NCBI RefSeq assembly: GCF_007970185.1
Contig: NZ_CP042431.1
Span: forward strand, 1,674,001-1,738,000
Reading direction: 5' to 3'
DNA length: 64,000 nucleotides
From: Pseudobacter ginsenosidimutans
GTDB taxonomy: Bacteria; Bacteroidota; Bacteroidia; Chitinophagales; Chitinophagaceae
Under the pieces are notes generated by a model. That model ran no database searches, was not told the DNA's origin, and saw only the letters and a program-made list of their open reading frames with translations. Position numbers and translations under genes: made by a program. This document shows positions 2,234 to 39,605 of this stretch, in pieces; positions within the stretch are counted from its first letter, which is position 1; every line of letters begins with the position of its first letter.

Positions 2234-2298
2234 CCGATGCACAGAGAAATCCAGTGCGTCCTGCAACAACAAAAAAATCTGTTGAGCTTTCAGTGCCT

Positions 2299-2455
2299 GG
2301 CCGCCGGAGGGATATGAAAACAGGGCCTAAGAAACATAAGCGATAAAGCCCATCTCAGTACCACAGCCCAATCCACACCACCCACAGCTCAGAAAAAATC
2401 CTCCCGCGTTGGTTTGTTTCTTCAGCCCGCGTTTTCATATCCCCCGCCGGCCGCC
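2299..2455 (-). repeat. Structured intergenic element, copy 1 (covarying-arm stem-loop)
   Basis: The arms at 2299-2321 and 2431-2455 are complementary; the perfect core is GGATATGAAAAC against GTTTTCATATCC, with a GC-rich outer part. Inner pairs continue the stem: GGGC (2323-2326) with GCCC (2425-2428), and AAGAAAC (2329-2335) with GTTTCTT (2416-2422). The loop contains ATAAGCGATAAAGCCC and ATCCTCCCGCGTTGG, shared with the copies at 16171 and 16836, whose arms have different sequences. The copy fills much of the 524-nt gap between exbD and the oxygenase gene. Strand is given by the GGAGGAT loop motif; the true sense is unknown. Confidence 0.75.
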
Positions 2456-4724: not shown

Positions 4725-6140
4725 ATGCAGCAATTACCTTATAATAACAGGAGAGCATTGGCTTTGATTCCGCTGATGCTCTTTTTATTTTCCTGCGTTA
4801 CTTACAATCAACGCATCGCCGACTATTATGCGGCTATGCGGAACAACAATTATACGGCCGCTGAAGCTACCCTGGAGAAAACAAAGATCCTTCAGGCTAA
4901 ACGCAACCGGCTGCTCTACCTGTTTGAAAAAGGTAAAATGGCGCACCTCATGAAACAGTACGACTCCAGTAACAGGTATTTCAATGAAGCGGATATTTTC
5001 ATGGAAGATGTGCGTACATCCGCGTCTGACGTAGCATTGGGCACCCTGCTCAATCCCATGATGCAGACCTACAAGGGTGAAGCCTTTGAGAAATTCATGT
5101 TGCATTACTACAAAGCTCTCAATTACCTCTACCTAGGAAAGCCGGGCGATGCCCTTGTGGAAGCAAGAAGGATCAGTCTTTCCAACTACGAATTGCAGGA
5201 CAAAACAAAAAGCGATAACAAATACAATGATGATGCCTTCTCCCTCATGATGCAGGGCATCATCTACCAACAGAATGACGACTGGAACAATGCCTTCATC
5301 GCTTATCGAAACTCCGTTGATCTCTTTCTGAAGAACAATAACAGTTACTACGGAGTGCCTATCCCGCAACAACTGAAGCAAGATCTGCTCCGCGCTGCCG
5401 ACAAAACAGGATTTACGGATGAGCTGGGACGTTATGAAAAACTGATGAACACCAGCTACCAGAAATACCCTGAGCCGCCCGGCGGAGAACTGGTGCTCTT
5501 CTGGGAAAATGGATTGGCGCCGGTAAAAGAGGAACAGAATTTTTTCTTCGCACTCACTAAAGATGGTCTCGGTAACTTCGCTTTTGTAGATCCCTCCGGT
5601 TCTTTCAATATTCCATTTAACTTCAGTGCCTATAACATCAATAGTTCAGACCTTCGCCTCGCTGATCTTCGTTCTTTTCGTGTAGCCTTCCCACGTTATG
5701 TGGAACAACCCATGTATTTCCGGAACGCGACCGTTACTCTCGACAATCAAAAATATTCACTGGAGCAGGCACAGAATATCAATACCCTCGCCTTTACAAC
5801 GCTTCGCGAAAGATTTTTGAAAGAGATGAGCACTGCACTTGCACGTCTTGTAGTGAAAAAGCTGGCGGAAATGGCAGCAAGACCCAAGAGTGACGATAAG
5901 AATAAAGACACGAAGGAAGCCATCGCCCTGGCCATCCAGGCGTTTAGCTTTGCAACCGAAAAAGCCGATACCCGCAACTGGCAAAGCCTGCCACATACTA
6001 TTTATTATACAAGGATCCCACTTCAGAAAGGAACCAACCAATTGCAGTTCCAGGCCAGTGGACAAAGCAGCCAAACCATCAACCTGGTAGTGGAAGGCAG
6101 GGGCGGACAGCAGGTTCAGAATATTGTGACACTCCGATAG
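4725..6140 (+). CDS. COG3014-like lipoprotein with TPR-type helices
   Basis: A 471-residue lipoprotein: signal peptide with lipobox LFSC (C24), then an alpha-helical TPR-like region (about residues 30-230). Helical repeats include LYLFEKGKMAHLMKQYDSSNRYFNEAD and a second set ending in IYQQNDDWNNAFIAYRNSV. A mixed region with a conserved PGGELVLFWENG motif follows (~255-267). The C-terminal third is beta-rich. It resembles the uncharacterised COG3014 family, often encoded beside LpoB-type lipoproteins, as here. A role in envelope or cell-wall assembly is inferred from that association. No catalytic motif is seen. The gene ends at 6140 and no clear terminator follows. Confidence 0.75.
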   Translation: MQQLPYNNRRALALIPLMLFLFSCVTYNQRIADYYAAMRNNNYTAAEATLEKTKILQAKRNRLLYLFEKGKMAHLMKQYDSSNRYFNEADIFMEDVRTSASDVALGTLLNPMMQTYKGEAFEKFMLHYYKALNYLYLGKPGDALVEARRISLSNYELQDKTKSDNKYNDDAFSLMMQGIIYQQNDDWNNAFIAYRNSVDLFLKNNNSYYGVPIPQQLKQDLLRAADKTGFTDELGRYEKLMNTSYQKYPEPPGGELVLFWENGLAPVKEEQNFFFALTKDGLGNFAFVDPSGSFNIPFNFSAYNINSSDLRLADLRSFRVAFPRYVEQPMYFRNATVTLDNQKYSLEQAQNINTLAFTTLRERFLKEMSTALARLVVKKLAEMAARPKSDDKNKDTKEAIALAIQAFSFATEKADTRNWQSLPHTIYYTRIPLQKGTNQLQFQASGQSSQTINLVVEGRGGQQVQNIVTLR

Positions 6141-14406: not shown

Positions 14407-16104
14407 ATGTATGACATTCTGCAACTGAACGACATGCTCGTTCCTGAGCTGCTGGATATAGCAGAGCAGTTAAAAATCTCCAACGCTAAAAAGCTCGACA
14501 AGCAAGAACTGATCTACAAGATCCTCGACAAACAGGCCGTCCTGGCCAGCGCTAATAAGGGCAACAACGCAGAAGAAAAAGGCAAACGCAAACGTGTTAT
14601 CAAAGCAACTACCGCCAACAGCACAGAAGAAGCTGATGTAATGAGCGGTGGTGAAGAAAAGAAAAAAGAATCCAGGGAAACTCCTGCCAGCAAAGCGCCT
14701 GTAGCGAAGAAGAAAGCAATGGAGAAATCAGTGGAGAAAGCAGCAGCAGCAGCGGCTCCCGCTCCCGTGGCAAAGAAAGGCCGTGGCAAGAAAGATGCGC
14801 AGCCGGTTGAAGAACAACCGATGTCGCTCGACCTCGATGCTAATATTCCCGATGAGATGGAAGAAGAAGATGTAGCCATTGAACAACCAGGTGAAATGCA
14901 TACTGATGTAGTTCACCACCAGGGACCTAATGGCGACAACCAGCATAAACCTTATCAAAATCGTCGCGAAACAGCCTTCAACATTGAGTTTGACGGTGTG
15001 ATCCTCGGCGAAGGCGTTCTCGAAATGATGCCTGATGGTTATGGTTTCCTCCGCTCTTCAGACTATAACTACCTCTCTTCTCCCGATGATATTTATGTTT
15101 CTCCTTCACAGATCAAACTCTTCGGTCTTAAAACCGGCGATACTGTGTATGGAGCTGTTCGCCCTCCGAAAGAAGGTGAAAAATATTTCGCACTGTTGAA
15201 AGTAGAGACTATCAACGGCAAACAACCGGAAGATGTGCGGGACCGTGTTCCTTTCGATTACCTCACGCCACTCTTCCCCTACGAAAAACTCAATATCTTC
15301 ACTACTCCCAACAGCTATAGCACTCGTATCATTGACCTTTTCACCCCTATCGGAAAAGGACAACGTGGTTTGATCGTAGCCCAGCCTAAAACAGGTAAAA
15401 CTGTTCTGCTGAAAGAAATAGCCAATGCCATCGCAGCCAATCACCCTGAATGTTACCTGATGGTAGTACTCGTGGATGAGCGCCCTGAGGAGGTGACCGA
15501 TATGGAACGCAGCGTAAGAGCAGAAGTGATCGCTTCTACTTTCGACGAACCTGCTGAGAAACATGTAAAGGTTTCCACTATCGCGCTTCAAAAAGCAAAA
15601 AGACTGGTAGAGTGCGGACATGATGTGATCATCCTCCTGGATTCCATCACTCGTCTTGCCCGTGCCCACAATACTGTTGCTCCTGCTTCCGGTAAAGTAC
15701 TTTCCGGTGGTGTGGAAGCTAACGCCATGCAGAAACCGAAACAGTTCTTCGGTGCTGCACGTAAGATCGAGAATGGCGGATCACTCACCATCCTGGCCAC
15801 TGCACTCATCGATACCGGATCCAAAATGGACGAGGTGATCTTCGAAGAGTTCAAAGGTACCGGTAACATGGAGCTTCAGCTCGATCGCCGCCTGGCAAAC
15901 CGCCGTATCTTCCCTGCCATCGACCTGGTTGCATCATCCACCCGCCGTGATGATCTCCTCCTCGAAAAGGAAGTGCTTCAACGCATGAACCTTCTTCGTG
16001 TGTACCTCACCGATATGAACACGGAGGAGGCGATGCATGAACTCCTCAGAAGAATGCGCGGAACCAAGGATAATCAGGAGTTTTTGGCGAGCATGAATGG
16101 ATAA
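14407..16104 (+). CDS. rho: Transcription termination factor Rho
   Basis: A 565-residue RNA-dependent helicase. Residues 1-45 are the Rho N-domain ([20 protein letters not shown]). Residues ~50-190 are a low-complexity insert rich in Lys, Glu and Ala, as is usual for Bacteroidota Rho. The cold-shock RNA-binding domain follows ([20 protein letters not shown], ~200-275). The RecA-like ATPase has Walker A (QPKTGKT, ~328), the ERPEEVTDM segment, Walker B ([17 protein letters not shown]) and the Q/R-loop region through [16 protein letters not shown]. All catalytic motifs are present. A terminator and an intergenic structured element follow directly. Confidence 0.97.
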
Positions 16105-16124
16105 TGCAATTCTTAATTTATTGT

Positions 16125-16157
16125 AAGCCGGTTGGGGGTTCCCAGCCGGCTTTTTTG
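16125..16157 (+). terminator. Rho-independent terminator after rho
   Basis: AAGCCGG-TTGGG pairs with CCCAG-CCGGCTT and is followed by six Ts, 20 nt after the rho stop codon. Confidence 0.85.
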
Positions 16158-16170
16158 TTTTATATGCTGT

Positions 16171-16325
16171 GGGCCGGAGAAGGGATATAAGATGCCGGCT
16201 GACGAAACGAACTAACGCAGGAGGATATGTTTGGGCTTTGGGTTGGAGGGATGGGGCTGTGGTGCCGGGACGGGCTTCTTCGCTTATGTTTCGAAGGCCG
16301 GCATCTTATATCCCTTCCCCGGCCC
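16171..16325 (+). repeat. Structured intergenic element, copy 2 (covarying-arm stem-loop)
   Basis: The arms 16171-16199 and 16297-16325 are complementary at 28 of 29 positions (core AGGGATATAAGATGCCGGC). An inner pair CGAAAC / GTTTCG extends the stem. The loop (AACGCAGGAGGATAT, then GGGCTTCTTCGCTTATG) matches the loops of the copies at 2299 and 16836 in reverse complement, while the arm sequences differ. It begins 13 nt after the rho terminator. Here the second conserved block found with the other two copies is not seen. Confidence 0.8.
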
Positions 16326-16729
16326 CGTGCACAATCAACGTTCAACAGCTTCGGCCGATGAATCAATAGTTCTTATAAAATTGAAGAAGCATCTTTTCCA
16401 TTCGGGCTAAAAAAACTTTGGATACTCCTTTCTTCCCCGCGCATGGAGGAGGTTCATGCATTTAGAAAAAAAAGGGGGAAAAGTGCATCACTCCAATTAA
16501 TTGCAGTAAGAAAATAGTTGTGTAATCAATCAGGTTGTAATAAGAGAGTAAGAAAATGTAAGGTCAATTTTGTATTGCAACAAAGAATAGCAACATGTTA
16601 AATAGAATAGGTAATGAAAATGTATTCTTTAACTTATCTCGCAAATGCAGCACCAATAATGCTTTCAGGCTACTCCCATCAAAAAAGAATAAAGCAGATG
16701 ATAAAGACTGCCCAATCATAATACCACTG
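16326..16729. other. Gene-free spacer between element copies 2 and 3
   Basis: An AT-rich stretch with no gene, tRNA or terminator I can support. Short open frames on both strands lack start context and family features. Confidence 0.5.
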
Positions 16730-16775
16730 CCTGCCATTACTTGTGCTGACGCACCTGTTCCCCATCCTCCTCCAC
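16730..16775 (-). repeat. Conserved block associated with structured element copy 3
   Basis: This block matches 2188-2233: CCTGCCATTACT, then GCACCTGTTCCCC and a C-rich end. It lies 60 nt before the left arm of the stem-loop at 16836, in the same order and orientation as in copy 1. On the minus strand it reads GWGTGASAQVMAG, in a frame that stays open for 86 codons but resembles the copy 1 frame only locally. Confidence 0.6.
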
Positions 16776-16835
16776 CAGCGTGGTTGGAAGTAATGCACGC
16801 ATCCCAAAGAAAAACTTTACCCATTCAGCGTGCTC

Positions 16836-16983
16836 TATCAAAGGGATGGATGTAATTCAGGCCTCGCAAATACAAGCGAAAAAGCCCACCAGCATTCCAC
16901 AGTCCATCAAACCATAAAAAGCAGAAAAATATCCTCCCGCGCCGGTGTATTTCGCAGCCTGAATTACATCCATCCCTTTGATA
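16836..16983 (-). repeat. Structured intergenic element, copy 3 (covarying-arm stem-loop)
   Basis: The arms 16836-16862 and 16957-16983 are perfectly complementary over 27 bp (core AAGGGATGGATGTAATTC). An inner pair AAATAC / GTATTT follows. The loop contains ACAAGCGAAAAAGCCCACC and ATATCCTCCCGCGCCGG, homologous to the loops of copies 1 and 2. The copy lies 37 nt beyond the stop codon of the minus-strand lipoprotein gene, converging with copy 2 in the rho-lipoprotein gap. Confidence 0.8.
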
Positions 16984-17020
16984 CCACCAAAGAAAAAGTT
17001 TTTCAGAAAAAAGGTGCAGC

Positions 17021-17734
17021 CTACTTCAACACCACGCCCTTCAATCTCTCCTTTCTCCATTGACCGGCGAGTTTGTCAGCAGCTTGTGCATCGTCCAGTT
17101 CGTAAAGATCATACATGTTGTCATTGAGACTGATCTTCCAGACGGTTACTTTTTTGCCGCCATTCTCTTCGTTTTCCTGTGTGCCGACGATCACCAGTTC
17201 ATTGTTGCTGGTCCAGAAGGCATCTTCAACGGAGCCGCCTGGGCCCATGAAAAGGAGGCGTTTGCTTTTACCGGATTTGGGATCGATGAGACTTACTTCG
17301 GTATCAGGACCTCCGGCTGTGCCGATGAGCTTGCCGCGCGAGTCTTTGCGGATATCGATATTGTAGCTGTCGAGGTCGATGAAGCGGGTACTGTCGGGTG
17401 AGTATTTGAGGAATGTTCCGTAGGAGGAGAAATAGGTCTTAGTAGGTTTGAAATCCTGCGTGAGCAGGGAATCCTGTTCGTAGCTGCTCTTATATTTGAA
17501 ACGACTCCAGTCGAAGTTGGGGATTTTGGTTTTGGCGTAGTCTGTGAAGCCGGCGGTCTGGAAGCGCTGGATTGTTTCAGCAGTGAGTGTGGTATCCGGA
17601 CCTGTAGTAACAATGCTGTCTGTTGTTTCTGTTTCATCATCGGGCTGGGTCTGTTTGTCTGCATTGTCGTTGCAGGCTGTGGCGGAAATGATGAGGAGTG
17701 CGAGTATGGAAGTGTAAATAGTGTATTTCATCAT
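17021..17734 (-). CDS. Lipoprotein of unknown function
   Basis: A 237-residue protein if read from MMKYTIYTS. A hydrophobic segment ends in a lipobox (ISATAC, Cys ~21). An acidic Asp/Glu/Thr linker follows (DDETETTDS), then a soluble domain rich in Tyr and Asp, with strands such as KRLLFMGPGGSVEDAFWTSNNELVIVGTQE that look beta-propeller-like. A longer start at 17761 adds nine residues with no signal-peptide character and was not chosen. I recognise no family. It lies 140 nt downstream of the pterin dehydratase gene on the same strand and may be transcribed separately. Confidence 0.7.
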   Translation of the reverse strand: MMKYTIYTSILALLIISATACNDNADKQTQPDDETETTDSIVTTGPDTTLTAETIQRFQTAGFTDYAKTKIPNFDWSRFKYKSSYEQDSLLTQDFKPTKTYFSSYGTFLKYSPDSTRFIDLDSYNIDIRKDSRGKLIGTAGGPDTEVSLIDPKSGKSKRLLFMGPGGSVEDAFWTSNNELVIVGTQENEENGGKKVTVWKISLNDNMYDLYELDDAQAADKLAGQWRKERLKGVVLK

Positions 17735-17874
17735 GCGAACGTTGTTGATTAAGGTACACAATAATTCGGCATCGGCCTGTTAAGCAGTGCTGGCGCGGGG
17801 TTTATTTAACGGGGTTTTAATAGATATGACTTTCGCCGTGTTTGGGACTGCGTGCAATTTGTTGAAGGAATGCA

Positions 17875-39456: not shown

Positions 39457-39493
39457 GAATTCAGGAAACAGTAATAAATTTGGTCATTAATTA

Positions 39494-39570
39494 TTGCATC
39501 GGGGTGCTACACAGTAGCTGAGATGATACCCGGGAACCTGAACTGGTTAATACCAGCGGAGGGAATGCAA
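39494..39570 (+). ncRNA. TPP riboswitch (THI element)
   Basis: All conserved parts of the thiamine-pyrophosphate aptamer are visible. P1 is formed by TTGCAT (39494-39499) and ATGCAA (39565-39570). The core GCTGAGATGATACCC is followed by GAACCTGAACTGGTTAATACC and AGCGGAGGGAATGCAA-type sequence. A terminator follows 36 nt later, so TPP should switch off the downstream operon by premature termination. Confidence 0.96.
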
Positions 39571-39605
39571 GGTGACACTGATTGTACTTCATTGTATTCA
39601 GCATA

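Follow-up and report, generated by a model that had tools for sequence, protein, structure and literature searches.

Dispersed intergenic hairpins with covarying, locus-specific arms in Pseudobacter ginsenosidimutans and some of its congeners

The window analyzed here, a stretch of 64,000 nucleotides from the genome of Pseudobacter ginsenosidimutans (G000; its congeners are denoted G001-G005, among them G004, Pseudoflavitalea rhizosphaerae KACC 18655, and G002, the metagenome-assembled genome (MAG) Chitinophagaceae BIN25), contains three copies of one stem-loop element (Table 1). Copies 2 and 3 form a convergent pair in the gap between a plus-strand gene at 14407-16104 that we take, by eye, to be rho, and a minus-strand gene at 17021-17761, presumably encoding a lipoprotein-like product (also named by eye), which precedes copy 3. 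What appears by eye to be the own terminator of rho lies ahead of copy 2. The first-pass annotation had described two elements of 155 and 148 nt in this gap, and their positions were as claimed; a recount of the matching arm positions by eye returned the same figures. With Rfam at gathering cut-offs, the window yielded only a TPP riboswitch (39490-39581, plus strand, 70.3 bits) and no match to the hairpins, and three sub-threshold matches at 16050-16165 end ahead of them. The hairpin pair after rho is present in G000, G002, and G004 and absent from G001 (L190), where the gap is apparently occupied by a short gene, YbjQ-like by eye.

Table 1. Hairpin features of the window, and G000 units compared with G004 (last row, genome positions)
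Feature	Position	Strand	Details
Copy 2, stem-loop, type A core, first of convergent pair	16171..16325	+	155 nt; 135.4 bits, E 1.2e-33 (covariance model R1)
Copy 2 left arm	16171..16199	+	by eye; 28/29 paired
Copy 2 right arm	16297..16325	+	by eye; pairs with left arm
Copy 3, stem-loop, type A core, second (inverted) pair member	16836-16983 (148 nt); R1 match 16834..16985	-	118.7 bits, E 5.1e-29
Copy 3 left arm	16957..16983	-	by eye; 27/27 paired
Copy 3 right arm	16836..16862	-	by eye; pairs with left arm
Copy 1, single stem-loop, same family	2298..2454 (about)	-	130.9 bits, E 2.2e-32 (R1)
Spacer between copies 2 and 3	16326..16833	.	G004 counterpart aligns over 70% of length, 82% identical there
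GTGCATCAC, GTGCRNCA-type motif	16483..16491	+	downstream of copy 2
GGGGAACAGGTGCGTCAG, GTGCRNCA-type motif	16746..16763	-	copy 3 side of spacer
G000-only units versus G004	346394, 927087, 1380771, 3858972, 3867296, 4741974, 5454371, 6011270		model search of G004

A BLAST search of G000 with copy 3 produced 43 matches, including arm-only matches and opposite-strand rows of the query. Thirty-two copies were aligned with MAFFT (alignment A1), and a covariance model built from them, R1, was run on G000 and on other Chitinophagaceae, as the first-pass annotation had proposed; more copies were found. In G000, 116 rows were obtained at E <= 1, of which 115 were kept and one, at E 0.58, was dropped. 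As the best 150 of 1605 candidates were scored in G000 and the best 150 of 1384 in G004, the resulting numbers, at least 115 copies in G000 and at least 107 in G004, are lower bounds. A second model, R2 (described below), added one G000 match absent from the R1 list (5820507). The GTGCRNCA-type motif (GTGCAGCA) occurs in the right flank, on the spacer side, of 20 of the 115 copies (0.15 in shuffles), and the window contains three occurrences of the 3'-loop motif at no more than three mismatches (0.01 expected); the motif GGAGGATAT by itself carries no significance in the window (3 occurrences versus 1.92 expected). The spacers of nine G000 units have little in common outside the hairpins and the hairpin edges.

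The copies are paired in a fixed orientation. Seventy-six of the G000 copies make up 38 neighbor pairs (less than 2 kb apart), compared with about 3.4 expected by chance, and all 38 are convergent, as are 37 of 37 neighbor pairs in G004; the two hairpins of a G000 pair are 94-866 bp apart, and the other 39 copies are single. Among the 36 G000 pairs that could be placed relative to genes (called with a simple in-house dicodon scorer), 17 are flanked by convergent genes, another 17 by tandem genes, and 2 by divergent genes, so the convergence of the units is not a by-product of gene direction. One pair (L021 451-1631, G000:C1 7133550-7134730) flanks a called gene of 201 aa that, judged by eye, we take to resemble a RibD/dihydrofolate-reductase-type protein; a unit may therefore contain a gene.

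Convergent gene pairs are nonetheless enriched at these units (32 of 73, versus 64 of 479 element-free gene pairs; Fisher p 8e-9), and many copies start immediately past a gene end. Both observations would suit a role as insulators of convergent genes, or as terminators that stop transcription from either direction. We consider this reading very unlikely, given that the T-rich tract of the element precedes the stem and none is seen in the base composition after it, that copy 2 comes after the apparent own terminator of rho, and that 41 of the 73 units lie outside convergent gene pairs. The first-pass annotation placed every copy after the end of a gene on its own strand; on the dicodon-scorer gene calls, this is true of 78 of the 115 copies and not of the remainder.

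The module is a hairpin of about 155 nt. Its outer stem, about 25-30 bp long, is specific to the locus and encloses a conserved clamp (GGC/GCC), followed by an asymmetric internal loop and, closing a G/T-rich hairpin loop of about 80-90 nt, an inner stem of 7 bp (GAAAC.../...GTTTC). A coding function of the loop was considered and rejected, because, by eye, reading frames shift between copies and stop codons intervene. The annotated contrast between dissimilar arms and homologous cores extends to the whole set: between loci, the left arms are 0.41 identical and the cores 0.65, and the cores of the two hairpins within one unit are 0.69 identical. Selection on loop-loop pairing within a pair was also considered and set aside, given that core likeness is only slightly higher within pairs than across them (0.689 versus 0.651, p 0.001).

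Within each copy, the dissimilar arms are complementary. When the 115 copies were aligned to R1 (A3, an alignment fitted to the structure, with 26 modelled pairs), 87.7% of the cells were standard pairs, 24 pairs varied on both sides, and double-sided changed cells numbered 813, versus 284 +/- 17 in shuffled alignments and at most 248 with slid partners; the corresponding count in the MAFFT alignment A1 was 135, versus 60 shuffled and at most 89 slid. Across the covariation measures, 0 or 1 of 500 shuffles reached the observed values, and the slid controls were exceeded as well. By plain alignment, the arm score has a median of 19.2 within a copy and 5.2 across copies. Nearly all copies are thus complementary, with 6 of 115 falling under the cross-copy 95% level (4 when the length limit was shortened) and 0 of 45 variant copies in G001 (the 51 rows of alignment A7 after removal of four duplicates on the opposite strand and two copies of type A), these counts varying slightly with the aligner and the length limit. 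The earlier proposal that pairing is selected or actively maintained is supported, and the arms, which differ in every copy, set the family apart from a classical MITE with common arms, as had been noted. The arms are not free of irregularities: isolated extra bases fall on the right versus the left arm 77 to 18 times in G000, 39 to 7 times in 57 G004 copies, and 8 to 8 times in G001, the recurrent right-arm base often lying 14-20 nt from the clamp. Because the ratio is even in G001, we take the extra right-arm base to be a feature of the type A hairpins.

Such strong covariation, together with the enrichment in convergent intergenic space, where transcripts end, speaks for a structured RNA, either a small RNA or a 3'-UTR element, in which pairing is selected in the transcript. 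Between G000 and G004, existing G.U pairs are retained more often than A.C (14 of 20 versus 7 of 26), the unrestricted mismatch count of G000 leans weakly to G.U (73 versus 55 A.C, p 0.13), and the excess of A.C among the isolated mismatches of G001 (16 versus 3) would amount to a G.U excess on the complementary strand. On the described strand, G.U is not in excess among new one-sided changes (20 G.U, 19 A.C, and 69 transversion mismatches between G000 and G004) or among isolated mismatches (G.U/A.C 11/16 in G000, 2/4 in 57 G004 copies, and 3/16 in G001, p 0.004). Since G.U is not commoner than A.C in these strictest counts, an RNA helix on the described strand is not favored. Pairs also occur between tandem and between divergent genes, and the search of Rfam returned no family for the hairpins. 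The evidence, mixed as it is, allows a DNA hairpin or a structure on the opposite strand, and we regard the structured-RNA explanation as possible, though somewhat unlikely.

The weak R1 matches of G001 proved to be strong hairpins with another core. R1 found two copies above 100 bits in G001, the other listed copies reaching at most 45 bits, and R2, a covariance model made from nine of the variant hairpins, gave 60 matches in G001 with scores up to 147 bits, versus at most 60 bits for G000 copies. One mixed G001 pair (L226) has one hairpin of each core type. Of a further 20 units in G001, 9 adjoin a G000 copy or come close to one (at a distance of 449 bp in one case), 2 have their flanks in G000 loci that are free of copies, and 9 have no flank there. 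At shared sites, the arms of G001 and G000 are more alike than the cross-site mean in 10 of 12 cases, one of which ranks below 0.05 by itself. Core type thus tends to be uniform per genome at places that are partly shared, which we read, from few genomes, as concerted change.

Beyond these genomes, the family was found to be narrowly distributed. In 394 family genomes, R1 matched at least five (four congeners and one MAG) and R2 at least four; weak or few copies elsewhere may have been missed, because the best 7 candidates per genome were scored in these scans, under stricter filters. Among the matches listed, the only genome outside the genus was the MAG G171, a fragmented assembly from another genus of the family with R1 matches at C293:728-880 and C254:3759-3908, which may reflect transfer, a binning error, or older presence. 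The family had been called apparently undescribed; this agrees with the lack of a matching Rfam family, and a literature search, thin on subscription papers, found no published description.

Orthologous places of 20 G000 sites were located in the five congeners with queries that joined the ends of the neighboring genes. Among the orthologous stretches fetched, copies were present in 17 of 17 from G004, 12 of 12 from G002, and 8 of 14 from G001, but in none of the 7 from G003 or the 10 from G005; whole-genome searches of G003 and G005 with R1 and R2 found no element. At some G003 or G005 sites, the flanking genes nearly touch. In a reverse check, the sequence was retrieved for 40 of the 53 G004 units still to be compared; all 40 adjoin a G000 copy, two G004 hairpins among these compared units being without a G000 partner hairpin. 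When the 20 remaining G000 units were traced, 12 shared gene neighbors with a G004 copy and 8 had no intact copy there. Overall, 69 of 70 G004 units (one was not compared) and 69 of 77 G000 units correspond, that is, the positions are fixed in these two species.

The eight G000-only units (Table 1) were scrutinized individually. No intact copy was found at their G004 sites (there was one 13.8-bit match), and none of these is a clean empty site. The G004 sites of 346394 and 5454371 hold remnants of arm and core around an internal deletion; that of 927087 (L378, about 1720-1857) holds a strong but different hairpin, perhaps of another repeat family (fold of -92 kcal/mol, flanks included); and at the remaining sites, the G004 alignment is lost over a longer stretch. 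G001 copies lie near two of the eight sites. The readable differences between G000 and G004 are, as judged from these alignments, losses, and units can be done without, as 8 of the 77 in G000 lack an intact counterpart in G004. For one G001 copy (L343), G000 shows an apparent empty site (4579570-4579609), which can also be read as a loss.

These observations bear on the other half of the first-pass proposal, that the hairpins are a mobile element family. An active, MITE-like element would account for dispersed copies in inverted pairs, for the absence of the family from two congeners, at some of the same sites with short gene gaps, for the sites in G001 being in part different (a G000 copy adjoins 9 of its 20 further units), for the apparent empty site at L343, and for the eight units lacking an intact counterpart. 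The fixed positions of 69 of 70 G004 units and the lack of a clean empty site for the eight G000-only units, two of which have left remnants in G004 and two of which have a G001 copy nearby, argue against it, as does the lack of a transposase tied to the hairpin family. In addition, the exact 19-base core pattern was absent from the viral collection, and one copy searched against the plasmid collection had no match. We consider current activity of this kind highly improbable; present mobility of the family is not supported by the comparison of sites. A related idea, that the arms were copied from flanking DNA at insertion, was rejected: no arm sequence is evident in the single apparent empty site examined (4579570-4579609), and the steep rise of matched changes described next can roughly account for the differences between loci.

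The fixed positions allow the pace of change to be followed. Over the aligned bases of 87 copies orthologous between G000 and G004, arm identity is 93-94% (6-7% divergence), versus 85% for the core and 82-87% for the near flanks. Divergence at fourfold sites in the genes on either side is 31% (7483 sites), and 28 spacers differ at 18% over their alignable two thirds, a figure to be read against a shuffled control that is already 66% identical. The arms are constrained: they are the slowest-changing part of the element between G000 and G004, yet the most different part between loci. In 23 copies compared between G002 and G000, arm identity is 0.73 and core identity 0.75. Matched double changes amount to 32 of 1956 pairs in the G004 comparison and 55 of 511, gaps apart, in that with G002, and this rise with distance would roughly suffice to produce the differences between loci without different arms at birth.

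Among the 1956 Watson-Crick pairs, the left base has changed in 84 and the right base in 104; in 32, both bases have changed to give another Watson-Crick pair, versus 1.49 expected. The double changes are unevenly spread, with none in 68 of 87 copies and three or four in each of three copies, and transversions, for which a G.U intermediate does not exist, account for 20 of the 32. By eye, the same insertion or deletion is present in both arms at L282, L292, L280, and L188. Pair-breaking one-sided changes (108) outnumber the 32 matched doubles, so that selection on pairing is not strict. In the G000 copy at 4584094, the left arm is doubled, the inner unit being, by eye, a reverse complement of about 23 nt of the right arm. 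A tandem duplication of about 45 nt on the left-arm side was also seen by eye at L143 (about 5754-5960; G000:C1 7634835 region) and was not seen in G004. Template switching has been proposed to create and repair hairpin stems (Monttinen and Loytynoja, PMC8794818, in the accessible text), and the matched indels, the double changes, and the doubled arm would fit such arm-to-arm copying.

Carried to its end, this reasoning leads to a purely mutational explanation, in which functionless quasi-palindromes are kept matched by template switching. Clustered matched changes, matched indels, the arm duplication at 4584094, and the occurrence of losses all agree with it. Yet the rate of change in the arms is about one fifth of that at fourfold sites and little more than a third of that in alignable spacer, where copying alone should, by our own reasoning, leave the long-term rate unslowed, and the recurrent right-arm base of the type A hairpins (77 versus 18) would be erased by copying of one arm from the other. 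The slow arm rate and the recurrent bulge thus argue against arm-to-arm copying as the whole story, and we judge the purely mutational reading unlikely.

The hairpins are real, not ordinary, and structurally constrained, and they are without sign of recent movement. To the explanation that they constitute a genus-level family of structured, non-coding intergenic repeats, inherited with the genome under purifying selection, in which the folded hairpin is a putative cis site, we give about an even chance. According to this explanation, the hairpins would have spread, probably in the form of inverted pairs, in an ancestor that some members of the genus share, and would since have been inherited with the chromosome, with occasional loss. 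Complementarity would be kept by selection on the folded strand combined with occasional arm-to-arm copying through template switching during replication, which could introduce several matched changes at once. By analogy with REP and BIME elements, the folded hairpin may serve as a cis site for a cellular factor, mostly in 3' (convergent) intergenic space. The site sharing is not complete, given that G001 agrees with G000 at 8 of 14 and then at 9 of 20 compared sites, and no partner protein was found, the sole gene sought being RAYT-like, in six congeners.

REP palindromes have a stem sequence shared across their family and a conserved tag, GTAG or CGTC, at the end. The present family resembles REP, REPIN, and BIME repeats in that more than 100 intergenic hairpins, many in inverted pairs (38 of 38 and 37 of 37 convergent, with 39 single copies in G000), are inherited vertically. 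It differs in the length of the module, about 155 nt, compared with 20-40 nt given for REP palindromes in the accessible text of PMC3733652, in its locus-specific stem, in the spacers of 94-866 bp within pairs, and in that the presence of a RAYT-like gene is not tied to the hairpins. A Y1_Tnp (RAYT-like) gene was found in all six congeners searched, including the element-free G003 and G005, and RAYT was rejected as the specific partner on that account. In L031 (1435-1863; G000:C1 7347186-7347515, minus strand), this gene encodes 142 aa, and its neighbors, by eye, are presumably genes for 3-dehydroquinate synthase and DAHP synthase/chorismate mutase. MITEs are likewise small, non-coding, and dispersed, with inverted repeats, but here the arms are unlike in every copy and the positions are fixed in two species. 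Integron attC sites, which recombine through an integrase, likewise fold and have covarying arms that are not the same from copy to copy, with R and L boxes at the base of the stem; in the hairpins, the conserved part is at the apex. Stems maintained by template switching, as presented in the accessible text of PMC8794818, share the occurrence of several matched changes at once and perfect stems, but belong to rRNA and other RNA genes, whereas the hairpins described here are dispersed bacterial intergenic repeats.

We tentatively suggest, as a possibility short of an even chance, that the family represents a new kind of vertically inherited genome fixture, with about 70 fixed intergenic units per genome, composed mostly of facing hairpins. 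The stems would be unique to their site and conserved there, and the cores would change together genome-wide; three species have one core type, and a fourth has mainly a different one, with the sites partly shared. If so, a trans-acting partner would co-evolve with the core and would read the stem by its shape, not its sequence. Hairpins with private, conserved stems provide about a hundred natural replicates per genome, with which an old question becomes addressable, namely, whether matched stem changes arise stepwise under selection or by template switching, and the fixed sites let matched indels and multi-base matched changes be dated between species. If a binding partner exists, the hairpins would constitute an intergenic code that is read by shape instead of sequence.
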